Under the pieces are notes generated by a model. The model saw only the letters and a list, made by a program, of their open reading frames with translations, ran no database searches and was not told the DNA's origin. Below are positions 958 through 21,108 of a DNA stretch of 64,000 bases, one piece after another. The position numbers were made by a program, and so were the translations under genes. The first letter of the stretch is position 1; each line of letters opens with the position of its first letter. The DNA is from Paracoccus denitrificans (GTDB lineage Bacteria; Pseudomonadota; Alphaproteobacteria; Rhodobacterales; Rhodobacteraceae), in NCBI RefSeq assembly GCF_900100045.1, contig NZ_FNEA01000005.1, positions 1-64,000 on the forward strand, read 5' to 3'.

Positions 958-2259
958 TTACCCCAGTTTCAGGTTGTCGATGCCGACGAGACGGTCGTAG
1001 ACCCAGTAGAGGATCAGCACCCCGCCCAGCAGCAGCGCCGCCAGCGCGGCCGCCATGGACCAGTTCAGCGTCTGCGTCATGTGCATCGCGATCATGTTGG
1101 AGATCAGCTGCCCCGACGAGCCGCCGACCAGCGCCGGCGTGATGTAGTAGCCCACCGCCAGGATGAACACCAGCAGCGCCCCCGCCCCCAGCCCCGGCAG
1201 GGTCTGCGGGAAATAGATGCGGCGGAAGGCGGTCCAGCTGGTCGCGCCCAGGCTGCGCGCGGCGCGCACGTAGCTGGGATTGATGGTGCGCATCACCGAA
1301 TAGAGCGGCAGGATCATGAAGGGCAGCAGGATATGGGTCATGGCGATGATCGTGCCGGTCTGGTTGAAGATCATCTGCAGCCGCTGGTTGTTGCCGATCA
1401 CCCCCAGCCAGACCAGCACGTCGTTGACCACGCCCTGCTGCTGCAACAGCACGATCCAGGCCGTGGTCCTGACCAGCAGCGAGGTCCAGAACGGCAGCAG
1501 CACCAGGATCATCAGCAGGTTGGACTGCCGCATCGGCAGGGTGGCCAGCAGATGCGCGACCGGAAAGCCCAGGAGGAAGGTGGTGGCGGTGATGGCCAGC
1601 GACAGCCAGAAGGTGCGCAGGAACAGCTTGCCGTAGATCTGCTGCTGCGCCGGGGCGGAGACGATGTCGCCCTGGTCGTCGCGGGTGCGGTCCACCGCCG
1701 CGAGGTAGAAGTTGGCGGTATAGGGCGAGGCGGCCTCTCGCATCACCGACCACAGCCGGGGATTGCCCCACCGGGCGTCCATCTCCAGGATCGCCTCGCG
1801 ATAGGGCGGCTCGATGCCGCCGCGCGCCTGCCGCCCGGCCGAGGTGAACAGCGACCGCGTGCCCGGCATGTCGTAGTTGATGCGGGTGCCGACCACGCCG
1901 ATGGTGCGGGCCTGGGCGGCGGCGGTCAGGTCGGCGGCCAGCGCCGCCCAGGCCGCATCGTCGGGCTCGGTGCCGCGGGGGTTGTCGTGGAACCAGGCGC
2001 TGAGCTGCGGCATGTTGGCCGAGAAGCCCTCGTTCTTGACCGAGCGCTGCAGCATCTGCCCGATCGGCACCACGAAGGTGATCAGCACGAAAAGCAGAAG
2101 CGGAAGCACCAGGAAAAACGCACGACGACGCGCACGACGCGAACTCCGCGCAAGCGCAGATCTCAACGGACGACCGTCGGCGGTTCTCAGCGTTCCGCCT
2201 TCGTCGAGGCCGCCGGCCTCGGTCACGATCGCGGCATGGGGGTCAAGGGCTTTGGCCAT
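958..2259 (-). CDS. ABC transporter permease, PotB family, with large periplasmic insertion
   Basis: Second membrane subunit of the polyamine-type importer. At 433 residues it is over 100 longer than typical PotB proteins. The extra length is an Arg-rich N-terminus of about 45 residues and a hydrophilic stretch between the first helix (about 48-70) and the second (about 215), which probably faces the periplasm. The EAA loop is visible near residues 330-358 (ARSLGATSW followed by FPQTLPG). It follows the second binding-protein gene after 74 bases containing a strong hairpin and runs directly into the PotC-like gene. The PotB/PotC pairing is clear. The role of the insertion is unknown, though long insertions of this kind occur in some proteobacterial members. 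Confidence 0.9.
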   Translation of the reverse strand: MAKALDPHAAIVTEAGGLDEGGTLRTADGRPLRSALARSSRRARRRAFFLVLPLLLFVLITFVVPIGQMLQRSVKNEGFSANMPQLSAWFHDNPRGTEPDDAAWAALAADLTAAAQARTIGVVGTRINYDMPGTRSLFTSAGRQARGGIEPPYREAILEMDARWGNPRLWSVMREAASPYTANFYLAAVDRTRDDQGDIVSAPAQQQIYGKLFLRTFWLSLAITATTFLLGFPVAHLLATLPMRQSNLLMILVLLPFWTSLLVRTTAWIVLLQQQGVVNDVLVWLGVIGNNQRLQMIFNQTGTIIAMTHILLPFMILPLYSVMRTINPSYVRAARSLGATSWTAFRRIYFPQTLPGLGAGALLVFILAVGYYITPALVGGSSGQLISNMIAMHMTQTLNWSMAAALAALLLGGVLILYWVYDRLVGIDNLKLG

Positions 2260-2293
2260 CTCGGTCCTTTGTCGGGCAAGATCCTTGGTCGAA

Positions 2294-2321
2294 GCCGCGG
2301 CCCGAACCGGCGGGCCGCGGC
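2294..2321 (-). other. Intercistronic hairpin downstream of binding-protein gene
   Basis: Perfect 11-bp GC-only inverted repeat (2294-2304 against 2311-2321) with a 6-base loop, between a binding-protein stop and the next permease start. No T-run follows, so it is unlikely to be a full intrinsic terminator. It probably blocks 3' decay or partly attenuates transcription, as described between malE and malF in enterobacteria. Confidence 0.6.
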
Positions 2322-2333
2322 GCGATGCGGCTG

Positions 2334-3413
2334 TCAGTTGGCCAGCCAGCCGTTGAAGCGCTCGGCCAGCTCGGCGGAATGGTCGGCCCAGAATTCCGGG
2401 TCGTCCATGACCGCGGTCTTCATGTATTCGGGATTGGTCGGCATATGCGGCCCCATCTCGGTCTTGCCGTCCTGATAGAGCCCGACCAGCGCCGCCGAGC
2501 TTTGCCGCGACGGGCCATAGGCGATGTATTTCGCCTGATTGGCCAGCTGTTCGGTGGCGGTGGCGAATTTCAGGTATTCCAGCGCCGCCTCGGGGTTGGG
2601 CGAGCCCTTGGGAATGGCGAACATGTCCATGTCCATGTATTGCCCGTCCCAGATGATCTCGAAGGGCTTGCCCTCGCCGACCATGGCGTCGAAGAAGCGG
2701 CCGTTATAGCCGGTCGCCATCACCACCTCGCCATCGGCCAGCAACTGCACCGGCTGGGCGCCGGCCTCCCACCAGACCACGTCGCGCTTGATGGTGTCGA
2801 GCTTGGCAAAGGCGCGGTCGACGCCCTCGGGCGTGCCCAGCACCTCATAGATCTGGTCGGGCGCCACGCCATCGGCGATCAGCGCCAGATACAGGGTGCG
2901 CTTGGGGTTCTTGGGCAGGCCGCGCTTGCCGGGGAACTTGGCGGTGTCGAAGAAGTCCGCGGCGGTCGAGGGTTTCTCGCCCTCGAACTTCGTGGTGTCG
3001 AAGGCGATGACCGTGCCCCAGAAGATGTTCGCCACGGCACATTCATGCAACGCGCCGGGGATGAAGTCGTCGGTGGCGGGCGTGCCATCGGGTGCGGCCG
3101 GCAGGATGGCGGGGTCGATCTCGACCAGCGCGCCCTCGTCGCAAAGCCGGATCGCGTCCGAGACCTCGATGTCGAAGACGTCGCCGGTGATGTTGCCCGC
3201 CTCGACCTGCGCCTTCAGCGGCGTGGCCGGGTTGTCGGCGGCCAGCATGTTCACCTTGATGCCGGTCTGCTCGGCGAAGGGGATGTTATAGGCCTCGACC
3301 TGCGATCTTTCATAGGCTCCGCCCCAGGAGACGACGTTGACCTCCTTGTTCTGGGCATGGGCCGCCAGACCGAGGCTGCACAGCGCCGAGGTCAGGATCA
3401 ATGTGGTTTTCAT
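2334..3413 (-). CDS. Periplasmic solute-binding protein, PotD-like (second of a tandem pair)
   Basis: Extracellular substrate-binding protein (359 residues) of the polyamine-type ABC system. A Sec signal peptide covers residues 1-20, ending AHA before QNKEVN. The mature part starts with the SWGGAY motif typical of this family, and TPEGVD lies in the middle. It is the same length as the neighbouring binding protein (3512-4591) and matches it along its whole length, including the MK-TLILTSAL leader and the C-terminal FN-WLAN, so the pair arose by tandem duplication. It probably delivers a related or overlapping ligand to the same permeases. The ligand cannot be read from sequence alone. Confidence 0.92.
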   Translation of the reverse strand: MKTTLILTSALCSLGLAAHAQNKEVNVVSWGGAYERSQVEAYNIPFAEQTGIKVNMLAADNPATPLKAQVEAGNITGDVFDIEVSDAIRLCDEGALVEIDPAILPAAPDGTPATDDFIPGALHECAVANIFWGTVIAFDTTKFEGEKPSTAADFFDTAKFPGKRGLPKNPKRTLYLALIADGVAPDQIYEVLGTPEGVDRAFAKLDTIKRDVVWWEAGAQPVQLLADGEVVMATGYNGRFFDAMVGEGKPFEIIWDGQYMDMDMFAIPKGSPNPEAALEYLKFATATEQLANQAKYIAYGPSRQSSAALVGLYQDGKTEMGPHMPTNPEYMKTAVMDDPEFWADHSAELAERFNGWLAN

Positions 3414-3473
3414 GTTCTACTCCCGTTGGTATGCGGCTCTTTGGCCGTTTCTTGGCCCGTCAGGGCTCTGCAT

Positions 3474-3504
3474 GGCCCACGGCGGGTCTGCCCCGCCGCG
3501 GGCC
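3474..3504 (-). other. Intercistronic hairpin between tandem binding-protein genes
   Basis: A 13-bp GC-rich stem containing one G-U pair on the transcript, closed by a 5-base loop, just after the stop of the first binding-protein gene. No T-run follows. It resembles mRNA-stabilising intercistronic stem-loops, and similar structures follow the two other binding-protein genes in this window. Confidence 0.6.
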
Positions 3505-3511
3505 GGGCATG

Positions 3512-4591
3512 TCAGTTCGCCAGCCAGGCGTTGAAGCGTTCCTGCAACTCGGCGTCGTGATCGACCCAGAAGTCCAGGTTCGAGGCCAGCGCGTTCTCCA
3601 GGTTCTCGGCAAAGGTCGGCAGGTTCGGACCCATCGGCACGTCGGTGCCTTCGATATTGCCGACCAGGGCGGCGGCAGAGGTGCGCGGCGGGCCATAGCT
3701 GATGAACTCGGCGGCGCGGGCCTGCTGCTCGGGCGCGGTCGAGAAGGCGATGAACTCCTTGGCGGCCTCGGGGTTGGGCGCGCCTTTCGGCATGACCCAG
3801 CCCTCCATCTCGTAGATCTGGCCGTCCCAGACGATCTTGAAGGGCTTGCCCTCCTGCTGGGCGGCGTTGAAGATCCGGCCGTTGAAGGCAAAGGCCATGC
3901 TCACCTCGCCATCGGCCAGAAGCTGCGGCGGCTGCGCACCGGCCTCCCACCAGATCACGTCGTTCTTGATGGTGTCCAGCTTGGCGAATGCCTGGTCCAC
4001 GCCCTCGGGCGTGCCCAGCACCTCGTAGACCTGGCCGGGCGCCACGCCATCGGCCATCAGCGCGAATTCCAGGTTGAACTTGGCGCCCTTGCGCATGGTG
4101 CGCTTGCCGGGGAACTTGGCCGTGTCGAAGAAATCCGCCGCGCCGGCGGGCTTGGCATCGGGGAACTTGCTGTCGTCATAGGCCAGGATCATCGAATAGA
4201 CATCCGTGCCGACGAAGCATTCGGTGATCGCGCCCTCGATGAAGTCATCGGCGGCGGCGGTGCCGTCGGCGGCGGGGGTCAGGATCGCGGGGTCGATCTC
4301 TTCCAGCAGTCCCTCGTCGCAAAGCCGCACGGCATCGGCATATTCGACCGAAGCCACGTCGATCGAGACGTTGCCGGCCTCGACCTGGGCCTTGACCGGG
4401 GTGGCGGGGTTGTCGGCGTCCGAGACCTGGACCTTCATCCCGGTCTTGGCCTCGAAGGGCTTGGCATAGGCCTCGACATGGCTCATGCCATAGGCTCCGC
4501 CCCAGGACAGCAGGTTGACCTGCTTGTCCTGCGCCTGGGCGGCGGCCGCGACGGTGACCAGCGCAGAGGTCAGTATCAGCGTGCGTTTCAT
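3512..4591 (-). CDS. Periplasmic solute-binding protein, PotD-like (first of a tandem pair)
   Basis: Extracellular binding protein of 359 residues for the polyamine-type importer. It has a signal peptide (about residues 1-20, AAAAQA before QDKQVN), then the SWGGAY motif. Two ATG codons stand side by side at 4594 and 4591. The second lies 5 bases after AGGGAG and gives exactly the same length as the paralogue at 2334-3413, so it is chosen. It follows the ATPase gene after 32 bases. Two binding proteins feeding one membrane complex usually widen the range of substrates. Which solute each binds is unknown. Confidence 0.92.
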   Translation of the reverse strand: MKRTLILTSALVTVAAAAQAQDKQVNLLSWGGAYGMSHVEAYAKPFEAKTGMKVQVSDADNPATPVKAQVEAGNVSIDVASVEYADAVRLCDEGLLEEIDPAILTPAADGTAAADDFIEGAITECFVGTDVYSMILAYDDSKFPDAKPAGAADFFDTAKFPGKRTMRKGAKFNLEFALMADGVAPGQVYEVLGTPEGVDQAFAKLDTIKNDVIWWEAGAQPPQLLADGEVSMAFAFNGRIFNAAQQEGKPFKIVWDGQIYEMEGWVMPKGAPNPEAAKEFIAFSTAPEQQARAAEFISYGPPRTSAAALVGNIEGTDVPMGPNLPTFAENLENALASNLDFWVDHDAELQERFNAWLAN

Positions 4592-4623
4592 CATAACTCC
4601 CTGGTTCCTTGCTCGATGCACAC

Positions 4624-5727
4624 TCAGACCGGATCGAGGGCGCGGGCGTCCTCGGGATGCCAGCCGATCCGTATCGTCTGGCCGGGCGACAGCTTCACCT
4701 GGCCAAGCGTATTGCGGTATTTCATGACGAAATCGTCCTGGCCGGCGACATGCAGCCGCGCCCGCAGGATGTCGCCCATATAGATCACGTCGCGCACCTG
4801 CGCCTCGATGGTATGGGCGCCGGCCGGCATCAGCTCGGGCTTGAACTCGACCCGCTCGGGCCGGATCGAGACCGTGGTGACCTGCCCGACTTCGCGGATG
4901 TTGACGGCGGTGGCGTCGATCAGCTCGCCATTGCCCAGCCGCACCAGCGTCTTGTCGCCCTGAAGCTGCTCGATGGTGCCGCGCAGCGCATTGTTCTCTC
5001 CGATGAAGCCGGCGACGAAGCTGTTCTCGGGCTGCTCATAGAGCACCGGCGGCGGCGCAAGCTGCTGGATGCGGCCGTCGTTGAACACGGCGATTCGGTC
5101 CGACATGGTCAGCGCCTCGCCCTGGTCGTGGGTCACATAGACCACGGTGATGCCCAGCCGGTCGTGCAGCGCCTTGATCTCGAACTGCATATGCTCGCGC
5201 AGCTGCTTGTCGAGCGCGCCCAGCGGCTCGTCCATCAGCACCAGCTTGGGGTCGAAGACCAGCGCGCGCGCCAGCGCGATACGCTGCTGCTGGCCGCCCG
5301 AAAGCTGGGCCGGGCGGCGATTCTTGAACTGGCCCATCTGCACCATGTCGAGCGCGCGGGTGACGCGCGTCTCGCGCTCGTCCTTGCCCATGCCGCGCAC
5401 TTCCAGCGGAAAGGACAGGTTCTCGCCCACGCTCATATGCGGGAACAGCGCATAGTTCTGGAACACCATGCCGATGCCGCGCCGGTGGGGCGGCACGTCG
5501 TTGATGTTGCGGCCGTCCAGCCGGATCTCTCCATGGGTCGCCGTCTCGAACCCCGCCAGCATCATCAGGCAGGTGGTCTTGCCCGAGCCGGACGGGCCAA
5601 GCATGGTCAGAAATTCGCCCTTGCCGATGGTCAGGTTCAGGTCTTTGACGACAAGTGTCTGGCCGTCATAGCTTTTCTGGACATGATCGAAGACAACGAA
5701 AGCGTCGTTGCCGGGGTCTGCTGTCAC
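4624..5727 (-). CDS. potA: ABC transporter ATPase, PotA family
   Basis: Cytoplasmic ATPase that energises the polyamine-type importer; 367 residues, normal for PotA. Visible motifs are Walker [10 protein letters not shown] at 44-52, Q-loop glutamine 90 ([11 protein letters not shown]), signature LSGGQ at 142-146, Walker B LVLMDEP at 162-168 and the switch histidine 200 (VTHD). The C-terminal 100 residues form the TOBE-type regulatory part found in this subfamily. The start is a GTG at 5727, placed 8-9 bases after AGGGAG. It is the first gene of the operon ATPase, binding protein, binding protein, permease, permease. The exact substrate remains inferred. Confidence 0.92.
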
Positions 5728-5931
5728 GATGCGGGCTCCCTGTTTCTATTGGTTCTTCGTTCCGCCCGCCAACAGTAATCGGCGCTTGTCGAGGAATGCA
5801 ACTCACTTGTCGCCGCAGCCGGCAGGACGCAGGCGACGAAGGCGGTGTCGCATTGCGTCACTGCCCTTTCGCCCGGCAGATTCCGGTTTCAGGTGAAGGT
5901 TCGTGCAGCCCGTCGCAGCCGAGGCCCGGGC

Positions 5932-6498
5932 TTACGGTTTGCCCATGCGGGCCAGTTCCCGCTGCGGGACGGCGGGCGGATGGTAAAGCCCGGCCGCGCC
6001 CTCCTGACCCCGCCTCAGCACCGAAAGCGAGCCGTTCGCCTCGAGGATGGCGAACTTGACCTCGGAAAGATCGGTCACGCCCCTTTCGCGCAGCTTCAGG
6101 TAAAGCTCGTTCATGCCGATGCCCTGCCGGCGCAGGCGGTCGCCATGCACCCGGCCTTCGGTGACGACGATGCGCGGCCGGCCCTCGAAAAGCCGGGTCA
6201 GCAGGTCCGAGGACAGAATCGCCTCGTCCACCAGCTTGTTGAAGCCCGCGACCAGGAAGATCGCGAACATGGCGGGCAGCAGCGGCACATCCGGGTAGAA
6301 CAGCGAATCCCCCACCGCCGAGCCGATGGCGATGACCAGCAGGAACTCGACGATGGAAAGCTGCGCCACCGTGCGCCCGCCCAGCCAGCGCATCAGGGCC
6401 AGCGTATAGAAATAGATGATGACAGTGCGGAAAAAGACCTCCCAGGCGAAGCCCAGGTCCTGGTCGCCCAGGAAGATGCGGTGAAGTTCCTCAAGCAT
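5932..6498 (-). CDS. DUF421 family membrane protein
   Basis: Small membrane protein of 188 residues with DUF421 (YetF/YrbG-like) character. Three hydrophobic helices lie in the first 90 residues, then a cytosolic part with the family segment RPRIVVTEGRV and the QGIGMNEL stretch. The ATG at 6498 is chosen because AGGGGG lies 8 bases upstream; an in-frame ATG 36 bases earlier has no such site. It stands alone between the polyamine operon and the pentitol locus, with about 100-200 bases on either side. The biochemical role of DUF421 proteins is not established. Confidence 0.85.
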   Translation of the reverse strand: MLEELHRIFLGDQDLGFAWEVFFRTVIIYFYTLALMRWLGGRTVAQLSIVEFLLVIAIGSAVGDSLFYPDVPLLPAMFAIFLVAGFNKLVDEAILSSDLLTRLFEGRPRIVVTEGRVHGDRLRRQGIGMNELYLKLRERGVTDLSEVKFAILEANGSLSVLRRGQEGAAGLYHPPAVPQRELARMGKP

Positions 6499-6600
6499 GG
6501 CGGCTGCCCCCTGCCCGCGCCGGCTTTGCGCCAAGGGACAATCCGCGATCCGGGGCGCGGGTTCCCCGCCGCCCGGCCGAATCCCGGCGACAGGAAGGCC

Positions 6601-7326
6601 CTAGACAGCCAGGAAACCGCCATCCACCGGCAGCACCGCGCCCGAGACCATGCGGCTGTCCTCCGAGAGCAGCAGCGCGATGCCCTGCGCGACCTCCTCG
6701 GCCTCGGCAAAGCGGTCCAGCGGATGGCGCACCATCATCGGCTGGCTTTTCGCCGGGTCGCTCCAGGCTTCGGCAGCCAGTTCGGTCAGGGTGATGGTGG
6801 GCGCCACGGCATTCACGCGGATGCCGTGCGGGCCAAGCTCCTTGGCCAGCACGCGGGTCGCGCCCTCCAGCCCTGCCTTGGAGGCGGCATAGCACAGGTG
6901 ATCCTGAAAGCCGCGGTGACCGGCGATCGAGGTGATGTTGACGATGGCGCCGCCGCCCCCCGCCGCCACGCGGCCGCGGGCGAATTCCTGGCAGCAGATC
7001 AGCGCCGCGCGCAGGTTGATGCCCAAGACCGCCTCATAGCCGGCCTCGGTCATGTCCAGCACGCTTTCCAGCACGTTTATGCCGGCACTGTTGACGAGAT
7101 AGTCGGCGGTCCCGGCCTCGGCCATGGCGGCGCGGGCAGCAACCGGATCGGCCAGATCGACGCGGATGCCGCGCGCGCCGATCTCGGCCGCGAGGCTGTC
7201 GAGGTCGGACTGGGTGCGGCTCAGCGCCACGACCTCGGCGCCGCGGGTGGCCATGAGCCGGGCGCAGGCCCGGCCGATGCCCTTGCCCGCGCCGGTGATG
7301 ATGACGGTCTTGCCCGAGAATTGCAT
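6601..7326 (-). CDS. SDR oxidoreductase, L-xylulose reductase (DCXR)-like
   Basis: Short-chain dehydrogenase of 241 residues. The NADP-binding TGAGKGIGR motif is at about 10-18, followed by LSRTQSDLDSL, which closely resembles the animal dicarbonyl/L-xylulose reductase. YAASK holds the catalytic Tyr and Lys, and the C-terminal WSDPAKSQPMM and PVDGGF also follow the DCXR pattern. Such enzymes interconvert L-xylulose and xylitol, or related ketose and polyol pairs. It is the last gene of the pentitol operon, starting 14 bases after the kinase stop; GAGGGA precedes the ATG. An in-frame ATG at 7338 is possible. The precise polyol is inferred from context. Confidence 0.85.
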   Translation of the reverse strand: MQFSGKTVIITGAGKGIGRACARLMATRGAEVVALSRTQSDLDSLAAEIGARGIRVDLADPVAARAAMAEAGTADYLVNSAGINVLESVLDMTEAGYEAVLGINLRAALICCQEFARGRVAAGGGGAIVNITSIAGHRGFQDHLCYAASKAGLEGATRVLAKELGPHGIRVNAVAPTITLTELAAEAWSDPAKSQPMMVRHPLDRFAEAEEVAQGIALLLSEDSRMVSGAVLPVDGGFLAV

Positions 7327-7340
7327 GGTCCCTCGCATGT

Positions 7341-8963
7341 TCAGGTGGACGGCAAAGCCGCCATGGTGGCGCGGATCTGCCGCGCCGTGGATTGCAGCGC
7401 CAGGAAGGCGGCGTGGCGCGCGTCCTGCCGCGCGCGGGCGGCGGGATCGGGGGCGCAGCGCATCGCGATGCGCGACATGGCGGGCATCGCGGTATGCAGG
7501 TCGGGATAGACCCCCGCCGCCACCGCGCCCAGCATGGCCGAGCCAAGCAGCACCGGCTCGGGGCATTCCGTCACCTCGACCGGCAGCCCGGTCGCATCCG
7601 CCAGAAGCTGCCGGGTCAGCGGATGCGCGCCGGCGCCGCCGCTGGTGCTGATCGTCTGGACCGGGGCGCCATGGGCGGCCTGGGTCTCGATGATCTGGCG
7701 CAGCCCGTAGCCAAGGCCGCAGATCCCCGCGACATAAAGCGCGACCAACGAATCCGGTCCGCTCTCCATCCCCTGCCCCATGACGACGGCGCGGGCATGG
7801 GGATCGGCGAAGGGGGCGCGGTTGCCCAGGAACTCGGGCACCACATGCAGCTCGTCGGCCAGCCGCACCGCAGCGCTGGCCTCGCCTGCCAGGTCCAGCG
7901 CCCGGTCGGCCAGCCATTGCGGCAGCGATTTGCCCGCCGCCTCGGCCAGAGCGGTGGCCTCGGCCGTGGCGGGATGCAGTTGCACCAGCTGGTCGATGGC
8001 GGCACCGGCGGCGGACTGGCCGCCCTCGTTCAGCCACATGCCGGGCACCATGGCCGAGTAATAAGGCCCCCAGACGCCGGGCACGAAGGCCGGCTCGCGC
8101 GTCGTGGTCATGGTGCAGGACGAGGTGCCGAAGACATAGCCCAGGCATTTCGTCGCATCGCCCCCGGCCGCGACCGTGCCGACGCCGCCGGCATGGGCGT
8201 CGATCAGCCCCGCCGCGACCGCGGTGCCGGGGCGCAGCCCCATGGCCTCGGCAGCGGCCGCGGTCAGCCCCGCCCCCAGCGCAGTGCCGGGATCGACGAC
8301 ACGCGAACCGATGCGGGCGAAACCGTTATCGGCCAGGTCGCCCAGTCCGATCTGGCGGAAATAATCCGCATCCCAGCGCCCCTCATGCGCCAGATAGGTC
8401 CATTTGCAGGTCACGGTGCAGGCGGAACGCTCCAGCGCGCCGGTCGCCTTCCAGGTCAGGAAATCGGTCAGGTCGAAGAAATGCGCGGCCGCCGCATAGG
8501 TCTCGGGCCGGTTCTCGCGCAACCATAGCAGCTTCGGCGTCTCCATCTCGGGCGAGATGCGGCCGCCGACATATTTCAGCACGTCGTGGCCTTGCGCGTT
8601 GATGCGCTCGGCCTGTTCCACGGCGCGGTGGTCCATCCAGACGATGATGTCGCGCTCGGGATGGGCGGGATCGCCGACCGGCAGCGTGGCATCCCCCGCC
8701 CCGCGCACGACCAGCGAGCAAGTGGCGTCGAAGCCGATGCCCGCGACCTGCGCCGGATCGATCCCGGCGCGGGCCACGCTTTCCCGGACGGAATCGCACA
8801 CGGCCCGCCAGACCTGCTCGCTGGACTGTTCGGCGACGATGCCGCGTTCGCGGTGCATCTCGATGGGGCGCTTGGCGGTGGCAAGCAGCCGGCCTGCGCG
8901 GTCGAAGACCCCGGCCCGGGCCGAGCCGGTGCCCACGTCGATGCCGATCAGATACTGGTCCAT
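7341..8963 (-). CDS. FGGY-family pentulose kinase, probable D-ribulokinase
   Basis: Sugar kinase of 540 residues in the FGGY family. The N-terminal ATPase-fold motif GIDVGTGSARAG is at about 7-18, and FDATCSLVV, IVWMDHRA and YVGGRISPEM are typical of the bacterial and fungal ribulokinase-type branch rather than of xylulokinase. The C-terminal nucleotide-binding motif is near residues 440-445 (TSGGAGAHP). Together with the ribitol dehydrogenase-like gene just upstream (28-base gap), the likely reaction is D-ribulose to D-ribulose 5-phosphate. L-ribulose or another pentulose remains possible because FGGY specificity is hard to read from sequence. Confidence 0.88.
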   Translation of the reverse strand: MDQYLIGIDVGTGSARAGVFDRAGRLLATAKRPIEMHRERGIVAEQSSEQVWRAVCDSVRESVARAGIDPAQVAGIGFDATCSLVVRGAGDATLPVGDPAHPERDIIVWMDHRAVEQAERINAQGHDVLKYVGGRISPEMETPKLLWLRENRPETYAAAAHFFDLTDFLTWKATGALERSACTVTCKWTYLAHEGRWDADYFRQIGLGDLADNGFARIGSRVVDPGTALGAGLTAAAAEAMGLRPGTAVAAGLIDAHAGGVGTVAAGGDATKCLGYVFGTSSCTMTTTREPAFVPGVWGPYYSAMVPGMWLNEGGQSAAGAAIDQLVQLHPATAEATALAEAAGKSLPQWLADRALDLAGEASAAVRLADELHVVPEFLGNRAPFADPHARAVVMGQGMESGPDSLVALYVAGICGLGYGLRQIIETQAAHGAPVQTISTSGGAGAHPLTRQLLADATGLPVEVTECPEPVLLGSAMLGAVAAGVYPDLHTAMPAMSRIAMRCAPDPAARARQDARHAAFLALQSTARQIRATMAALPST

Positions 8964-8991
8964 GGCGCTACTCCGTTCCGGGTGCCGGGCG

Positions 8992-9723
8992 TCAGACGCG
9001 GTCGAAATTGGTCGGCAACACCAGCATGTCGCGGATGGTGACGGTGCGCTTGCGGGTCAGCATGTATTCGAGCGCATCGGCAACCTCTTCCGCGTCGATC
9101 AGGCTGCCGGATTCCCTGGCCTTGCGCAAATTCTCCTCGGGCCAGTCGGCCAGCAGCGCCGAGACCACCGGGCCGGGCGAGACCTGCATGACGCGCACGC
9201 CATGCGGGATCATCTGCCGGCGCATGCCCTGGACAAAGCTGGTGATCGCCCATTTCGAGCCGGAATAGACCGGCTCCCACCAGGTCGGGAAATGGCCGGC
9301 GATCGAGCAGGTGACGACGATGTCGCCGGTTTTCCGCCGGGTCATGTGCGGCACCACGGCGCGGACGTTCTTCATCACCGCGTTGACGTTGAGGTTCAGC
9401 ATCCGGTCGATGGCCTCGGGCGTCGTCTCGGTCAACTCGCCGCCGATATAGGTGCCGGCATTGCAATAGAGGATGTCGATATGGTCGACCTTGGCCAGGA
9501 TCTCGGGGATCATCGCATTGCAGCTGTCGACGTCGAGCAGGTTCGTCACCTGCGGGATCGCCCTGTCGCCCAGCTTGCCGGCCAGTTCGGCCAGCGCCGC
9601 CTCGTTCCAGTCCACCATGACCACGGTGGCACCGCGATCCAGCAGCCGCCGGGTGGCGGCAAGGCCGATCCCCGAGGCCGCGCCGGTGATGACGGCGATC
9701 TTGCCGTCCAGCGATTCAGACAT
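8992..9723 (-). CDS. rbtD: Ribitol 2-dehydrogenase-like SDR
   Basis: Short-chain dehydrogenase, 243 residues. TGAASGIG at about 13-20 binds NAD, NAGTYIGG matches the NAGAYIGG of Klebsiella ribitol dehydrogenase, and WEPVYSGSKWA carries the catalytic Tyr and Lys. GPVVSALLADWP and the ending TRKRTVTIRDMLVLP also mirror that enzyme. The expected reaction is ribitol to D-ribulose with NAD. Context agrees: a ribose-type ABC importer precedes it and a ribulokinase-like gene follows. The ATG at 9723 has a purine-rich AGGAGAATGG just before it. Function is a strong homology inference from remembered family features, with substrate still untested. Confidence 0.87.
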   Translation of the reverse strand: MSESLDGKIAVITGAASGIGLAATRRLLDRGATVVMVDWNEAALAELAGKLGDRAIPQVTNLLDVDSCNAMIPEILAKVDHIDILYCNAGTYIGGELTETTPEAIDRMLNLNVNAVMKNVRAVVPHMTRRKTGDIVVTCSIAGHFPTWWEPVYSGSKWAITSFVQGMRRQMIPHGVRVMQVSPGPVVSALLADWPEENLRKARESGSLIDAEEVADALEYMLTRKRTVTIRDMLVLPTNFDRV

Positions 9724-9759
9724 TCCATTCTCCTGTCTTTCTAATGGGTTGGGCGGGGC

Positions 9760-10737
9760 TCAGCGCCATTCGCGCCCGATATAGATGGCCAGCAGGATGA
9801 TCGCGCCCTTGATGACGTCCTGCAGATAGGGGTTGATGCCCATCAGGTTCAGGCCGTTGTTCAGGATGCCCAGCAGGACCGCGCCGATCAGCGTGCCCAG
9901 GATCAGTCCGCGCCCGCCCGAGATGGCGGTGCCGCCCAGCACCACGGCGGCGATGGCGTCAAGCTCGAAGCCCTGGCCGGCATTGGGCTGGCCGCTCATC
10001 AGCCGCCCGGTCAGGATCACCGCGGCCAAGGCCGAGGTCAGGCCCGAGATGCCATAGACTGCCAGCTTGACCCGCTGGGTCTTGACGCCGGAAAGCCGCG
10101 CCGCGGTCTCGTTGCCGCCAAGCGCATAGACATGGCGGCCAAAGGCAGTGCGCTGCAAGAGCACCCAGGCCAGGGCGTAGATCAGCACCATGATGATGAC
10201 CGGGACCGGCACCACGCCGACGCGGCCCACCCCGAACCACGAGATCCAGCCGGGGATGCCGCTGATCGGATAGCCGCCCGAATAGATCAGGCCCAGCCCG
10301 CGCGCCATGCCCATGGTGGCCAGCGTCACGATGATCGCCGGCATCCGGCCCCAGGCGACCAGCACGCCGTTCGCCAGCCCGATGCCCAGGCCGATCAGCA
10401 GCCCGGTGAGCAGCGCCACCGGCGCCGGCAGGCCCATGTTGACCATCAGCCCCGCGCTGAGCGTGCCGACCAGCGCCATCACCGCGCCGACCGACAGGTC
10501 GATGCCGCCGGTCAGGATGACGAAGGTCATGCCCACCGCGAGGATGCCGACGACCGACACCTGCCGCAGCACGTTCATGATATTGTTCAGGCTGAAGAAA
10601 TTGTCGCTGGCGAGCCCCATCAGGATCGATACGACGATCAGCCCGATCAGCGGCAGCGCCAGGGGCGAATGCAGCAGGCGGCCAAGCGAGAAGCCGCCGG
10701 TTTTCCCGGCCGAGCCGGTGTTTGCGTCATGCGACAT
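9760..10737 (-). CDS. ABC transporter permease, RbsC family
   Basis: Membrane subunit of a ribose-type (CUT2) sugar or polyol importer, about 325 residues. It is highly hydrophobic with eight to ten predicted helices and the CUT2 permease features [16 protein letters not shown] near residue 65 and [14 protein letters not shown] near 265. The ATG at 10737 overlaps the end of the ATPase gene by 11 bases and has GGGAGAG upstream, so it is preferred over a start 24 bases earlier. In this family one permease forms a homodimer with a double-headed ATPase. The neighbouring ribitol and xylitol enzymes suggest pentitol uptake. Confidence 0.9.
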
Positions 10738-12232
10738 GTTCAACTCTCCCGGTCGTGGCATGGGTCATGATGGTTTCGGAATTGATCTCGGCCCCCTCGA
10801 CCGTGGCCACGATCCCGCCCGAGCGGAACACGCAGACCCGGTCGGACATGCCGATCACCTCGGGCAGTTCGGACGAGATCATGATGATCGCCCCGCCCTT
10901 CTCGGTGAAGGCGCGCATCAGCGCATAGATTTCCGCCTTGGCGCCGACATCGATGCCGCGCGTCGGCTCGTCGAAGATCAGCACCTGCATGTCGTGGTTC
11001 AGCCAGCGGGCGATGACGACCTTTTGCTGGTTGCCGCCCGACAGCGTATCGACGCGGGCATGCGGCCCCTGCGCCTTGACCCGGACCTGCGCCATGGCGG
11101 TCTCGGTCGCGGCCAGTTCCTTTTTCAGGTCGATGAACCAGTGGTTCTTGCGATACTTGCCGTAATTGTTCAGCGAGACGTTCTGCAGGATCGAAAAGCT
11201 GGTGATCAGCCCCTGCTCCTTGCGGCTTTCGGGCAGCAGACCGATGCCATGCGCCAGCCCCTCGTCCGGGCCGCGAAAGCGTTTCTCGACCCCGTCCACC
11301 TTCACCTTGCAGCGTTGGGCCGGATACGCCCCCAGCATCGCCAGCACGGTTTCGGTGCGGCCCGAACCGACCAGCCCGGCAAAGCCCAGGATCTCGCCCT
11401 TGCGCAGCGCAAAGCGCGAGACGGGGCCGCCCTTCTTCAGCTGCACCTCCTCGACCTCGACGGCCAGCGGGGCGGCGGGGGCGGCGGCGGGCTTGGGCGG
11501 GAAGTTGTTCTCGATCCGGCGGCCGACCATCATCTCGACCAGCCGGTCGTTGTCGACCTCGGAAACCGCGCAGGAACCGACGAACTCACCGTCGCGCAGC
11601 ACGGTGATGCGGTCGCAGATCTCGAATATCTCTTCCAGGTGATGCGAGATGAAGATGATCGCCACACCCTGCCGGCGCAGCTCGCGCATGACCTTGAACA
11701 GGTGCTCGACCTCCGAGGGGGTCAGGGTCGCGGTCGGCTCGTCCAGGACCAGGATGCGGGCGTCGAGCGACAACGCCTTGGCGATCTCGACGAATTGCTG
11801 CTCGGCGACGGACAGGCGATGCACCGGCACGTCCAGGGCCACATCGACGGCCAGCTGGCGCATGATCTCGGCGGCGCGCTTGCGCATCGCCTTGCGGTCA
11901 AGCATGCCCAGCGGCCCGCGCATCTCGCGCGCCAGGAACATGTTCTCGACCGCGTCGAGATAGGGGATCAGGCTGAATTCCTGGAACACGATGCCGATGC
12001 CGGCGGCGATGGCCTGGTCGTAATCGGCGAAATGGCGCTCGGTTCCCTCGATGCGGATCGTGCCCTCGCTGGGCTGGATGATGCCGCACAGGATCTTCAT
12101 CAGCGTGGACTTGCCGGCGCCGTTCTCGCCCAGAAGCGCATGGACCTCGCCCGCGCGGACCTCCAGATCGACGCCGTGCAGCACCTCGATCTTGCCGAAG
12201 CTTTTTCGGATTCCGTTCAGTTCCAGCATCAT
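10727..12232 (-). CDS. Double-domain sugar ABC transporter ATPase, RbsA family
   Basis: Cytoplasmic ATPase with two fused ABC domains, 501 residues as usual for RbsA/XylG/MglA. Domain one has an intact Walker A (GENGAGKST, about 36-44) and Walker B (ILVLDEPT). Domain two (about 250-500) has the altered Walker [10 protein letters not shown] typical of the family and the signature LSGGNQQK. It drives the CUT2 importer made with the RbsC-like permease and the RbsB-like protein. A 67-base gap with a hairpin separates it from the binding-protein gene upstream. Its stop overlaps the permease start, indicating translational coupling. Confidence 0.92.
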
Positions 12233-12257
12233 GCCCTCCTGAATGGCTGGGAAATGT

Positions 12258-12284
12258 CCCGCCCCCGCGACATGCAGGGGCGGG
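12258..12284 (-). other. Intercistronic hairpin downstream of the pentitol binding-protein gene
   Basis: Perfect 8-bp inverted repeat (12258-12265 against 12277-12284) of G and C only, with an 11-base loop, between the binding-protein stop and the ATPase start. No T-run follows. It is the third hairpin of this kind behind a binding-protein gene in the window. Confidence 0.5.
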
Positions 12285-12299
12285 CGCGGGGAGGAACCC

Positions 12300-13205
12300 T
12301 TACCAGCTGAACTCGGCAGCGTTCTCGGCGTCGACGACCATGACGTCGATCGGCACTTCCTTCGGCACCACGCGGGCGCCCCATTTCTGCGCCAGCGCCA
12401 TGGCCAGGCCGACGCGGACCTGGTCGCGCGGGAATTGCGCGGTGGTCTCGATGAAGGGGCCGCCCGCGGCGATAGCCTGGACCGCCTCGGGTGCGCCGTC
12501 GACCGATGTCAGCTTGATGTCCTTGCCCGAGCCCTGGATCGCCGCCAGCGCACCCATGGCGCCGCCGTCGTTGACCGAGAAGATGCCGGCCAGATTCGGA
12601 TGCGACTGGATCATGTTCTCGACCACGCCCAGCGCGACCGAACGGTCCTGGCGGCCGTTCTGGGTGGTGACCAGGGTGATTTCCGGGAACTCTTCCAGCG
12701 CGGCCTTGCAGCCCTCGACGCGCTGAAGGATCGGCACGACCGGGATGCCGTCCAGGATCGCGACCTCGCCCTTGCCCTCCAGCGCCTCGCCCAGATACTT
12801 GCAGGACATGTAGCCCGCATCGCGGTTCTTCGAGCCGACGAAGGTATCGACCGGGCCGTTCGCGTTCGCATCGACCGCGACCACGGTGACGCCGGCGGCC
12901 TTGGCGGCGTGGACGGCGGCCTCGATCCCGGCGCTGTCGGTCGGGTTCAGCAGCAGGATGTCGATGTTCTGCTGCAGCATGTCCTCGACATCCGAGATCT
13001 GCTTGGCGACGTCATGGCCGGCATCGGTCACGACGACATCCGCGCCCAGGCTGGCGGCGGCTTCGTTCAGCGCCTCTTGCATGGACACGAAATAGGGGTT
13101 GTTGAGCTCCTGGAAGGTCATGCCGATCTTGAGCTTGTCCTGCGCGAGCGCCGGGGCCGCCAGCAGCGCCAGCGCGGCCGAAGCGGTAAGAAGTTTCGAT
13201 TTCAT
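12300..13205 (-). CDS. Periplasmic sugar/polyol-binding protein, RbsB family
   Basis: Binding protein of the ribose-type importer, 301 residues. Residues 1-22 form a Sec signal peptide ending ALA before QDKLKIG. The mature protein starts with a first beta strand and [12 protein letters not shown], typical of the periplasmic-binding-protein type I fold (Peripla_BP_4). The ATG at 13205 follows GGGAGGGAA and gives a proper signal peptide; the open frame extends further upstream but lacks one. It is the first structural gene after the AraC-type regulator. Likely ligands are ribitol, xylitol or a related pentitol, judged from the enzymes encoded around it. Confidence 0.9.
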
Positions 13206-17749: not shown

Positions 17750-17775
17750 CCCGCCGATTTACCCGGAGAGTGACG

Positions 17776-18924
17776 ATGCCCCAGAAACCGACCGCATGTC
17801 TTGCGCTTGCCGACGGCACCGTGTTCCACGGCCAGGGCTTCGGCGCGGTCGGGGAAGTGGTGGCCGAACTGGTCTTCAACACCGCGATGACCGGCTATCA
17901 GGAGATCATGACCGATCCCTCCTATGCCAGCCAGATCGTGACCTTCACATTTCCCCATATCGGCAATACCGGCGTGACCGAGCAGGACGACGAGGCGCCC
18001 GAGCCCGTCGCCCCGGGCATCGTGGTGAAATGGGATCCGACCGAGCCCTCGAACTGGCGGGCCAGCGCCGATCTGGTCGACTGGATGGCCCGGCGCGGCC
18101 GCATCGGCATCGGCGGCGTCGACACCCGCCGCCTGACCCGCGCGATCCGCCAGCAGGGCTCGCCGCATGTCGTGCTGGCCCATGACCCCGAGGGGAATTT
18201 CGACATCGCCGCCATGGTCGCCAAGGCGCGCGACTGGCAGGGCATCGTCGGATTGGACCTCGCCAGGGAGGTCAGCTGCCGGCAAAGCTATCGCTGGGAC
18301 GAGGGGCTGTGGTCCTGGCCCGGAACCTTTGGCCAGTCGGACGAGAAAAAGCCCTTCCGGGTCGTCGCCGTCGATTATGGCGCAAAGCGCAACATCCTGC
18401 GCTCGCTGGCGCAAAGCGGTGCCGAGGTGACGGTCCTGCCCGCCACCGCCACCGCCGAGGAGGTGCTGGCCCACGACCCCGAGGGCGTGTTCCTGTCGAA
18501 CGGCCCGGGCGATCCGGCCGCGACCGGCGAATATGCCGTGCCGATGATCCGCGAACTGCTGGGCAAGGACCTGCCAATCTTCGGGATCTGCCTTGGCCAT
18601 CAAATGCTTGCACTGGCGCTTGGCGCCAGCACGATCAAGATGAACCACGGCCATCACGGCGCCAACCACCCCGTCAAGGACGTGGAAACCGGCAAGGTCG
18701 AGATCACCTCGATGAACCACGGCTTCGCGGTGGATGCGCAGACCCTGCCCGAAGGCGTGATCGAGACCCATGTCAGTCTGTTCGACGGCTCGAATTGCGG
18801 GCTGCGGGTGGCCGACAGGCCGGTCTTCTCGGTGCAATATCACCCCGAGGCCAGCCCCGGCCCGCAGGACAGCGCCTATCTGTTCGACCGCTTTACCGAG
18901 GCGATGCGCAGCCGCCGCGGCTGA
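17776..18924 (+). CDS. carA: Carbamoyl-phosphate synthase small (glutaminase) subunit
   Basis: Glutamine amidotransferase subunit of carbamoyl-phosphate synthase, feeding arginine and pyrimidine synthesis; 382 residues, normal length. The N-terminal half has the CarA-specific FNTAMTGYQEI and TFPHIGNTG. The C-terminal class I amidotransferase domain shows the nucleophile in GICLGHQ and the His/Glu pair in QYHPEASPGP. The ATG at 17776 has GGAG 7 bases upstream; a GTG at 17770 is in frame but abuts that site. The large subunit gene is not in the window. Confidence 0.97.
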   Translation: MPQKPTACLALADGTVFHGQGFGAVGEVVAELVFNTAMTGYQEIMTDPSYASQIVTFTFPHIGNTGVTEQDDEAPEPVAPGIVVKWDPTEPSNWRASADLVDWMARRGRIGIGGVDTRRLTRAIRQQGSPHVVLAHDPEGNFDIAAMVAKARDWQGIVGLDLAREVSCRQSYRWDEGLWSWPGTFGQSDEKKPFRVVAVDYGAKRNILRSLAQSGAEVTVLPATATAEEVLAHDPEGVFLSNGPGDPAATGEYAVPMIRELLGKDLPIFGICLGHQMLALALGASTIKMNHGHHGANHPVKDVETGKVEITSMNHGFAVDAQTLPEGVIETHVSLFDGSNCGLRVADRPVFSVQYHPEASPGPQDSAYLFDRFTEAMRSRRG

Positions 18925-18945: not shown

Positions 18946-18960
18946 TTAACCCGTTCTTAA
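18946..18960 (+). promoter_or_regulatory. CtrA-type binding site (TTAA-N7-TTAA)
   Basis: TTAA at 18946-18949 and TTAA at 18957-18960 are separated by exactly 7 bases and followed by CC, the full consensus for the alphaproteobacterial cell-cycle regulator CtrA. It lies about 52 bases before the glycosyltransferase start, suggesting CtrA control of that gene. Confidence 0.55.
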
Positions 18961-19011
18961 CCCTCTGGATGCCAGAGAGGGGGTCGGAATGACCCAGACC
19001 GGGAATCGCGC

Positions 19012-21108
19012 ATGGCCCGCATCGTCCCTATCAGGCCCTTCGAAGGCATACCTGTCCTGGCGGCCCTGCCGGACCCCGCCGAGACGGTCGTGTCGGCCCG
19101 CGACCTGCGGCCGCTCGGCCAGATCCTGATCGAGGACGGCGCAGTCGACCCGCGCAACCTGTTCAAGGCGCTGGTCATGCGCCAGCGCCAGTCGGCACGG
19201 CTGGGCGAGATCCTGCTGGCGAACGGCTGGGTGCGGGAAGAGGCGCTGATCCGCGCCCTGTCCCGGCAATGGCGCGCCAGCGTGCTGGACCTGAAGGCGC
19301 TGCCGCCCGATCCGCGCCTGGTCGATGCGATGGGGGCGCAGCTTTGCCTGGCCGAGGGGGCGGTGCCCTGGCGGCGCGTCGGCGGCGTGACCTTCATCGC
19401 CACCGCCCGGCCAGAAGGATTCCAGGCGTTGCAGGACCGCCTGCCCCAGGATTTCGGCGCGGTGCGCATGTTGCTGTGTTCGGAAAACGCCGCGCGCGAG
19501 GCGATCCTGGCCCTGCGCCGCACCGCGCTGATCCGCCAGGCTGAAACCCGCGTTCCCGCCCATGAAAGCTGCCGCACCCGCAACGAGCGCCGCTTCGGCC
19601 GAATCGCAGTGATCCTGATCGCGGCAACGGTGCTGGGGTTGCTGCTGGCACCGATCGCGGTGATCGCCTTGCTGACGGGTTGGACGGTGCTGACGCTGAT
19701 CGCCTCGGCCGCGTTGAAGCTGCTCTCCTTTGCCGCCATCCTGCGCCGACACCGCCGGGACCGCACCAAGGCCGAGGCCATGGCGCGCGATGCGATCCCG
19801 CCGCCCGAGATGACGGCACCGCTGCCGGTGATCTCGGTCATGGTGCCGCTGTTCGCCGAGGCCGATATCGCCGAAAAGCTGATCGGCCGGCTGTCGCGGC
19901 TGGACTACCCGCGCGAGTTGATGGACATCCTGATCGTGGTCGAGGAAACCGACAGCGTCACCTGCGCGGCGCTGGAGGACGCCCGTCTGCCCCGCTGGCT
20001 GCGGGTCGTGAAGGTGCCGGACGGGCCGGTGCGCACCAAGCCGCGGGCACTGAACTATGCGCTGAACTTCTGCCGCGGCTCGATCATCGGGGTCTGGGAT
20101 GCCGAGGACCGGCCCGAGCCCGGCCAGTTGCTCAAGGTCGCACGCGGCTTTCATTTCGCGCCGCCCGAGGTGGTCTGCCTGCAAGGCGTGCTGGACTATT
20201 ACAACCCGCGCACCAACTGGCTGGCGCGCGCCTTTACCATCGAATACGCCTCGTGGTTCCGTGGCACGCTGGCCGGGGCGGCGGCGCTGGATCTGGTGGT
20301 GCCGCTGGGGGGAACCACGCTGTTCTTCCGCCGCGAGGCACTGGAAGAGGTCGGCGCCTGGGACGCCTGGAACGTTACCGAGGATGCCGACCTGGGCGTG
20401 CGCCTGACCCGGCGCGGCTATCGCACGCGGATGCTGGACACCGTAACGCATGAAGAAGCGAATTGCCGCCTGATCCCCTGGGTCAAGCAGCGGTCGCGCT
20501 GGCTCAAGGGCTTTGCCATGACCTGGGGTGTGCATATGCGCGACCCGGTGGCGCTGTGGCGCGATCTGGGCGCACGGCGCTTCATCGGCTTGCAGGTGCA
20601 GCTTTTCGCCTCGGTCTCGCAATACCTGCTGGCGCCGGTACTGTGGAGCTTTTGGCTGCTCAGCCTCGGCCTGCCGCATCCGATGCGCGGGATGCTGTCG
20701 GGCATGCTGGGCGGCAATGCCATCGCCATCCTGTTCACGCTGTTCGTGGCCTCGGAACTGCTGAACATCGCCATCGGGCTTTGGGCGGTGCGCGGGCGGG
20801 GGCATCGCCACCTGCTGCCCTGGGTGCCGACGCTGCACCTGTATTTCCCGCTCGGCTGCCTGGCGGCCTGGAAGGCGATCTACGAGGTGGTGGCCAAGCC
20901 CTTCTACTGGGACAAGACGCAGCACGGCATCTTCGAGGCCGGCCAGGAAGAGGCGCCCGAGCCCGCACCCATCGCGCCGGGCAGGCTGATCCCGCTGCGC
21001 AAGGTGGCCGATCTGCACCCCTTGGCGCTGATTGCCGACCCGGCCATGCCTGCTCCGCGCTCGAAGCGCAACTGGGCTTTCCTGCGCGGCAAACGCCTGA
21101 CCGCATGA
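19012..21108 (+). CDS. MshEN-domain membrane glycosyltransferase, family 2 (cellulose-synthase-like)
   Basis: Inner-membrane processive-type glycosyltransferase of 698 residues. Residues about 33-90 carry two back-to-back 24-residue motifs (LGQILIEDG and LGEILLANG, each followed by a L-x-x-A-L helix), the pattern of the MshEN/GspE N-terminal domain that binds cyclic di-GMP. Two helices follow at about 195-245. The GT2 domain has VWDAED, TEDADLGVR and QRSRWLKG, the D, D and Q-x-x-R-W motifs of cellulose-synthase-like enzymes, followed by further helices. It probably makes or exports a polysaccharide under c-di-GMP control. The ATG at 19012 has only a weak GGGA; a stronger-looking ATG at 18989 is out of frame. 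The sugar made is unknown. Confidence 0.88.
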   Translation: MARIVPIRPFEGIPVLAALPDPAETVVSARDLRPLGQILIEDGAVDPRNLFKALVMRQRQSARLGEILLANGWVREEALIRALSRQWRASVLDLKALPPDPRLVDAMGAQLCLAEGAVPWRRVGGVTFIATARPEGFQALQDRLPQDFGAVRMLLCSENAAREAILALRRTALIRQAETRVPAHESCRTRNERRFGRIAVILIAATVLGLLLAPIAVIALLTGWTVLTLIASAALKLLSFAAILRRHRRDRTKAEAMARDAIPPPEMTAPLPVISVMVPLFAEADIAEKLIGRLSRLDYPRELMDILIVVEETDSVTCAALEDARLPRWLRVVKVPDGPVRTKPRALNYALNFCRGSIIGVWDAEDRPEPGQLLKVARGFHFAPPEVVCLQGVLDYYNPRTNWLARAFTIEYASWFRGTLAGAAALDLVVPLGGTTLFFRREALEEVGAWDAWNVTEDADLGVRLTRRGYRTRMLDTVTHEEANCRLIPWVKQRSRWLKGFAMTWGVHMRDPVALWRDLGARRFIGLQVQLFASVSQYLLAPVLWSFWLLSLGLPHPMRGMLSGMLGGNAIAILFTLFVASELLNIAIGLWAVRGRGHRHLLPWVPTLHLYFPLGCLAAWKAIYEVVAKPFYWDKTQHGIFEAGQEEAPEPAPIAPGRLIPLRKVADLHPLALIADPAMPAPRSKRNWAFLRGKRLTA

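Follow-up and report, generated by a model that had tools for sequence, protein, structure and literature searches.

A membrane glycosyltransferase of Paracoccus denitrificans with an N-terminal MshEN domain and a CtrA-type box conserved in the Rhodobacteraceae

The window analysed here is a 64-kb stretch of the Paracoccus denitrificans genome (64,000 nucleotides; assembly GCF_900100045.1, contig NZ_FNEA01000005.1, positions 1 to 64,000) and contains a gene for a 698-aa membrane glycosyltransferase (the GT gene) that is preceded by a conserved CtrA site. The protein joins an N-terminal MshEN domain, likely to bind cyclic di-GMP (c-di-GMP), to a GT2 catalytic domain. On balance, we consider it probable that the gene encodes a single-gene, c-di-GMP-gated GT2 of the processive type (cellulose/hyaluronan synthase fold) and belongs to a conserved CtrA regulon of the Rhodobacteraceae. 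A preceding sequence-only reading, whose interval 18946–21108 joined the box and the open reading frame (ORF), had proposed a polysaccharide synthase timed by CtrA and switched on by c-di-GMP; its observation was right, with a case for the box that is now stronger than the sequence alone could show, and its interpretation was right in kind, though doubtful for CtrA in this strain.

Results

A conserved CtrA-type box precedes the gene

18946–18960, + strand: CtrA-type box TTAA-N7-TTAA (exact), TTAACCCGTTCTTAA, in the context TTAACCCGTTCTTAACC

The exact box that had been noticed ahead of the gene is the only TTAA-N7-TTAA of the window, and none of 100 shuffles contained one. The 5.19-Mb genome has 10 distinct TTAA-N7-TTAAC sites, with 14 strand-wise matches compared to 4 for a reversed-pattern control. 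Conservation was followed in 110 Rhodobacteraceae genomes, the best-scoring of 266 with the GT gene (one locus per genome: the window genome, 29 loci, and 80 further loci), in the 400 bases that precede the MshEN motif. An exact box was present in 96 of these and a box with at most one mismatch in 109, such that 13 of the 14 exceptions to the exact box differ by one mismatch. Shuffles preserving base composition only yielded a mean of 0.1 exact boxes and a mean of 3.8 boxes with up to one mismatch (maximum, 8). Spacings from N1 to N15 other than 7 occurred in at most 4 of the 110, and twelve equally long control stretches within and near the gene contained 0 or 1 box among 77–110 sequences. 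A chance origin of the box is therefore ruled out by the shuffles, the control stretches, and the family-wide retention.

Both half-sites are kept around a variable N7 spacer, with the consensus TTAAC-N6-TTAACC, and in 14 aligned Paracoccus promoters the half-sites and the flanking C are invariant. The distance from the end of the box to the first in-frame ATG is narrowly distributed (median, 47; quartiles, 44–50.25; n = 90), with the window box ending ~50 bases before the start codon. The box was exact in 74 of 78 named loci. Outside the family, no box was found within 1500 bases in 26 loci, 25 of them informative (L127 has no upstream sequence), and the three box hits in a class-wide set all belonged to Rhodobacteraceae. 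The published CtrA consensus is TTAA-N7-TTAAC (PMC4046655). Because the box is kept at a fixed place in most of the 110 genomes and fits this consensus, we conclude that it is a conserved CtrA site, at which CtrA is expected from the sequence to bind.

Directly 3' of the box lies an imperfect hairpin (18961–18981; CCCTCTGG ATG CCAGAGAGGG) that, unlike the half-sites, is only partly kept in close relatives (the 14 Paracoccus promoters). Another of the 10 genomic CtrA-type sites (contig C80, 33885–33901) is located ~1.3 kb before a ChpT-like match that is followed by a receiver-domain match, within a 699-aa frame that is perhaps cckA; this site may stand just ahead of that frame. The window genome has one strong ChpT-type match.

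Domains, predicted structure, and distribution

19012–21108, + strand: 698-aa membrane glycosyltransferase with an N-terminal MshEN domain (ORF, ATG start; family matches; homologues across the family)
19111–19269, + strand: tandem c-di-GMP motif, residues 34–86 (motif 1, 34–57; motif 2, 63–86)
19279–19515, + strand: second subdomain of MshEN, residues 90–168
19585–19785, + strand: two N-terminal hydrophobic helices, residues 192–258 (model helices 192–212 and 214–258; membrane location judged by eye from hydrophobicity)
19828–20508, + strand: GT2 catalytic domain, residues 273–499 (DAED, 363–366; TED, 456–458; QxxRW, 493–497)
20545–20928, + strand: interface and C-terminal membrane helices, residues 512–639, ending in the PFYWDKTxHG segment, 630–639 (structure model; alignment A2)

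Structure prediction for the whole protein (predicted local distance difference test [pLDDT], 86.3; predicted template modelling score [pTM], 0.84; low-confidence stretches with pLDDT <50 at residues 1–9 and 636–698) gave a compact domain at the N-terminus that leads, by way of two long helices, into the GT domain, with the interface helices and more helices of membrane type after it. This layout would place the protein in the inner membrane with the MshEN and GT domains in the cytoplasm.

The joining of two 24-residue MshEN motifs to a GT2 domain, as described from the sequence, was borne out by family models on both sides. In the N-terminal part, the NCBIfam c-di-GMP motif model NF053729 matched residues 34–86 (8.7e-14; 51.1 bits compared to a cut-off of 38), and the Pfam MshEN (T2SSE_N) model PF05157 matched residues 90–168 above its cut-off, the sole such match in the window genome. 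Motifs 1 and 2 are separated by a 5-residue spacer, the spacing of the published 53-residue MshEN geometry (PMC5013675), and both fit the relaxed form of the published 24-residue pattern. The N-terminal domain predicted alone (pLDDT, 88.4) had as its best structural match MshE with c-di-GMP (5htl; Z = 17.3, root-mean-square deviation 2.2, 137 residues), followed by c-di-GMP-bound PilF domains (including PilF-GSPIIB; Z = 14.5–16.3). The remaining MshEN domains scored 8.9 or more, and no unrelated fold exceeded 6.7. Foldseek agreed on these matches, and the seven nearest solved folds are c-di-GMP-bound forms. On this motif and fold evidence, c-di-GMP binding by the window protein is likely. The genome also contains two GGDEF and two EAL matches.

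For the catalytic part, three GT2 models (PF13641, PF13632, and PF00535) matched above their curated cut-offs within residues 273–578, with a fourth (PF13506) just below its own. The catalytic residues (DAED, TED, and QxxRW) are kept in 108–110 of the 110 genomes, and the combination of TED, QxxRW, membrane helices, and GT2 fold is that of processive membrane GT2 of the BcsA/HAS/NfrB type. Residues 630, 633–636, 638, and 639 of the PFYWDKTxHG segment are invariant (alignment A2, 109 sequences). This segment follows the last helix, presumably at the place where hyaluronan and chitin synthases carry their W-containing gating-loop motif.

A homologue of the GT (E value of 1e-40 or better) was present in 266 of 295 Rhodobacteraceae genomes, representing 294 genera. 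The closest named relatives (loci of Paracoccus sp. MKU1, P. versutus, and P. thiocyanatus) share 87% identity. In an even sample across the class, 38 of 289 genomes had a homologue at an E value of 1e-20, four of them from the Rhodobacteraceae with the window genome included. Among 26 loci outside the family, the best alignment begins at residue 35 or earlier in 11, and thus the MshEN-first architecture also exists outside the family. The GT and CtrA were found together in 259 of the 295 genomes; 18 had neither, 7 had the GT without CtrA, and 11 had CtrA without the GT (a hand tally, with unlisted genomes assigned by elimination and split or frameshifted CtrA scored as present). The Fisher p value for this co-occurrence (5e-16) ignores kinship, and many of the 18 genomes with neither may be one odd lineage. 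Five of the seven GT-only genomes are 62–87% complete, and one (G006) has a C-terminal CtrA piece.

Evidence against the proposed function and alternative explanations

Several observations weigh against a c-di-GMP-gated, CtrA-timed synthase, and are set out here beside the alternatives on which they bear. The first concern the ligand residues. The conserved Leu, Gly, and Gln expected from the sequence-only reading are all present in motif 2, which also keeps its Arg, but in motif 1 Pro replaces Arg (position 1) and Arg replaces Gln (position 24), and the strict RLG...Q motif is thus not found in both halves of the window protein. Across the 110 genomes, the relaxed pattern fits both motifs in 16. 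A looser core, defined by Gly3 and hydrophobic residues at positions 2, 17, and 21, is complete in the two motifs of 59, and at least one of the two motifs is short of core residues in 51; Gly3 is present in both motifs in 69 and Gln24 in 51. A change of Gly3 in motif 1 of the E. coli protein NfrB abolished killing by phage N4 (PMC8669472). The MshEN domain is retained across the family while its ligand residues drift in many lineages, unlike the residues of the GT domain, and because 51 genomes have a degenerate motif core, control by c-di-GMP is probably not universal in the family.

This drift, set against the almost invariant GT motifs, leaves room for MshEN to be a structural or docking domain that senses no c-di-GMP in most of the family, with control being transcriptional only. 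The N-domain of Xanthomonas PilB, solved with PilZ, has the same fold (Z = 14.2–14.4) and would fit such a role. We nevertheless regard it as unlikely, given that the window protein fits the relaxed pattern twice and exceeds the NF053729 cut-off, that its seven nearest solved folds are all c-di-GMP-bound, and that NF053729 matched in 33 of 38 sampled genomes (E value of 0.001 or better) and Pfam MshEN in all 38.

The second group of observations concerns the product. The position aligned with the BcsA DxD reads DAED and is kept in this form in 109 of the 110 genomes, and no linked pore, outer-membrane, or periplasmic partner stood out in 80 loci searched up to 4 kb on each side (these flanks were the only part of the genome searched). 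The GT and membrane part of the model matched the mannosyltransferase PcManGT (Z = 22.1), E. coli BcsA (20.0–21.4), Rhodobacter-type BcsA (16.4–19.2), and hyaluronan synthase (up to 17.8). For the whole model PcManGT ranks first in VIA, in a tie with E. coli BcsA (scores within 1), and a weak match to the lipid glycosyltransferase HpnI was obtained (19.2 bits compared to a cut-off of 310). Together with the missing partner beside the gene, these matches would suit a non-processive enzyme that transfers a single sugar, or a few, to a membrane lipid (glycolipid or polyprenyl-phosphate), still under CtrA and possibly c-di-GMP control. The near invariance of TED and QxxRW, the invariant terminal WDKT segment, and the alignment of BcsA and hyaluronan synthases over 347–389 residues, membrane helices included, argue for processive synthesis, and the lipid-modifying role is given a minor share of our confidence.

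The third group concerns CtrA itself. In this strain, ctrA lies outside the window (window genome contig C44, 123318–134509; positions 1519–12710 of locus L226) and is interrupted by a phage-type element of 10.4 kb, with the Rhodobacter-type CtrA model matching residues 1–182 at C44:123318–123863 and residues 173–224 at C44:134309–134464. No other CtrA match of comparable strength was found in the window genome. The first piece ends seven residues past FLNH, and covers 34 of the 77 positions of the DNA-binding domain model, below the cut-off. As the element removes part of the DNA-binding domain, timing by CtrA is doubtful here and probably does not operate in the strain as sequenced. An unbroken ctrA is found in 10 of 10 close named relatives, all with the box, and its loss therefore looks recent. 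The split weakens CtrA timing in this strain, not the identity of the box as a CtrA site; of the earlier claim that the gene is timed by CtrA, the family-wide box stands while the timing in this strain is in doubt. The one clear exception among the seven GT-only genomes is a nearly complete one (G184; scored for GT and CtrA alone) that has the GT and no CtrA match of the usual type.

An intact box beside a broken ctrA, and the genome with a GT and no CtrA, could also be accommodated if the box served another regulator or another purpose, such as ending transcription of the upstream carA. However, the spacing of 7 and the consensus fit the published CtrA site (PMC4046655), the box keeps a constant distance to the start codon, ctrA is unbroken in each of the ten close named relatives that have the box, and an intact box in this strain is to be expected given that ctrA splitting is sporadic; a role apart from CtrA is quite improbable.

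ctrA as a phage integration site

At its left junction, the element that splits ctrA carries a tyrosine integrase; it also contains an endolysin, a tail-fibre protein, and a match to a head protein. No terminase, replication, or repressor family was matched in nine scanned frames of the element, which may therefore be a remnant. Both junctions share GTTCCTGAACCA, located in the ctrA codons for FLNH. The same codons are the integration site in at least six of 125 genomes of the genus (the window genome and, with loci L231–L234 and L237–L239, G591, G699, G602, G588, and G630), with a probable seventh (G684, L241) and one that shows a contig end only (G657), and also in a genome of another genus (G088; L235 and L236). 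From the first ctrA piece to the second, the distance is 40.5 kb in G588, 40.0 kb in G602, and 47 kb in G088; in G591, G699, and G630 the second piece was not located. Integrases related to that of the window strain (55.7–90.4% identity, the highest value over 136 residues only) occur at the junction loci of six other genomes.

The integrase beside ctrA in the window strain is 91.7% identical to that of Paracoccus phage vB_PkoS_Pkon1 (L242, MK291442.1). Pkon1 is reported to disrupt an OmpR-family regulator gene at attB GTTTCTCAA(G/C)CAT (PMC6536676), and the term ‘ctrA’ does not occur in the available portion of that report. The Pkon1 attB also reads as FLNH codons and has letters identical to those at the ctrA junction of G088, which suggests, as judged from sequence identity, that the regulator disrupted by Pkon1 is CtrA. 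Among 20 listed papers, of 234 matching a search for ctrA as a prophage site, a single one contained the word ctrA. Separately, in G217 (C3:464621–465293) and G022 (C371:1996–2669) CtrA is matched as two pieces that adjoin or overlap, as a frameshift or a misassembly would produce.

Neighbouring genes

17770–18924, + strand: carA-like upstream neighbour, carbamoyl-phosphate synthase small chain (ORF; same-strand homologue in relatives)

The upstream ORF, which we take from its translation to be carA, has a same-strand homologue ahead of the GT in 103 of the 110 family genomes and in 78 of 80 named loci, and is the sole neighbour conserved beyond the genus. The convergent downstream gene, presumably glnE from its translation, was found in 56 of the 80 named loci, all titled Paracoccus, and among the 110 at the window locus only (the downstream sequence covered there had a median length of 1506 bases).

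Discussion

In the function we propose, phosphorylated CtrA would bind the box ~50 bases before the start codon and activate a promoter there; the conservation of the box is observed, and binding and activation would follow from it. The tandem MshEN motifs would hold one c-di-GMP, as motif and fold suggest, and this would free the GT domain to lengthen a glycan with sugar taken from a nucleotide-sugar donor. Judging from the fold and the catalytic motifs, the growing glycan may pass through the membrane helices of the protein itself. Synthesis would then require two signals together, with expression depending on CtrA and activity on c-di-GMP, and in the sequenced strain the first of these is probably cut, with ctrA being split by the phage element.

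A wider reading is possible, though we lean against holding all of its parts at once: a near-universal, previously unassigned branch of the CtrA regulon in which one conserved gene on its own converts two inputs, CtrA activity and c-di-GMP, into a glycan at the cell surface, with a box that arose with the family and with ctrA-targeting phages switching off glycan and regulon in lysogeny. Under this reading, insertion into ctrA could shield the lysogen from CtrA-dependent phages, since Rhodobacter capsulatus without ctrA resists phage Jorvik (PMC10589892). If the proposed function is true, one core gene joins two signalling systems linked to the motile-to-attached switch in a very widespread family, and a second MshEN-gated synthase, with a domain order opposite to that of NfrB, becomes available as a test case. 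Because it lies behind carA, the gene is simple to locate and to remove in a laboratory strain.

Comparison with known systems

Among known systems, the MshEN (T2SSE_N) domains at the N-termini of MshE, PilB, PilF, and XpsE share the two-part fold and the tandem 24-residue motifs, but precede a secretion ATPase where the window protein has a glycosyltransferase. BcsA shares the processive GT2 fold and the membrane helices (Z = 16.4–21.4) and an expected control by c-di-GMP, but the window protein has no PilZ domain in the Pfam scan and carries MshEN in its place; assignment as a cellulose synthase was rejected on a CelA model score far below the curated cut-off (43.7 bits compared to 699.1). 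BgsA, the mixed-linkage beta-glucan synthase of Sinorhizobium, is likewise an alphaproteobacterial glycosyltransferase activated by c-di-GMP (PMC5567048; compared by description only). Two further candidates were set aside: rcc01932, a capsule gene linked to the receipt of RcGTA, was dropped as an orthologue on its description as a chain-initiation gene and not by sequence (PMC10218006), and pxm of P. denitrificans (Pden_0842) is a phosphoglycosyltransferase, a different kind of gene (PMC13235738).

A glycosyltransferase named as a CtrA target was not found in the available text of five CtrA papers (PMC4046655, PMC7232146, PMC9426580, PMC6473078, and PMC8116508), where ‘glycosyl’ occurs once, within ‘glycosylase’ (PMC9426580), and whose supplementary target tables may list the gene. 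PMC9756655 treats c-di-GMP enzymes and, in the available portion, not this GT gene. A family-wide CtrA box on the gene was not met in the literature searched for CtrA-linked or MshEN-bearing glycosyltransferases of this group.

The closest counterpart is NfrB of the E. coli phage N4 receptor system, which also combines a membrane GT2, TED and QxxRW, and MshEN in one chain. NfrB binds c-di-GMP, and infection by N4 needs both of its domains (PMC8669469, PMC8669472). The relation with opposite domain order that had been seen in the sequence was upheld by the alignment of residues 29–130 of the window protein with positions 479–578 of the NfrB model. Assignment as NfrB was rejected on the reversed order, with MshEN first in the window protein, and on a score far below the cut-off (42.4 bits compared to 1170). 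In contrast to nfrBA-ybcH (PMC8669469), no conserved gene after the window GT would fit nfrA or ybcH, and no nfrA-type operon gene was found among the shared neighbours of the 80 loci (the search was confined to these neighbours). The GT gene also differs from nfrB in carrying a CtrA box. Fusions of MshEN to glycosyltransferases have been mentioned before (PMC5013675), so that the MshEN–GT2 fusion and the control of NfrB by c-di-GMP are known already; it is the reversed domain order and the conserved CtrA box that make the protein of the Rhodobacteraceae a variant.

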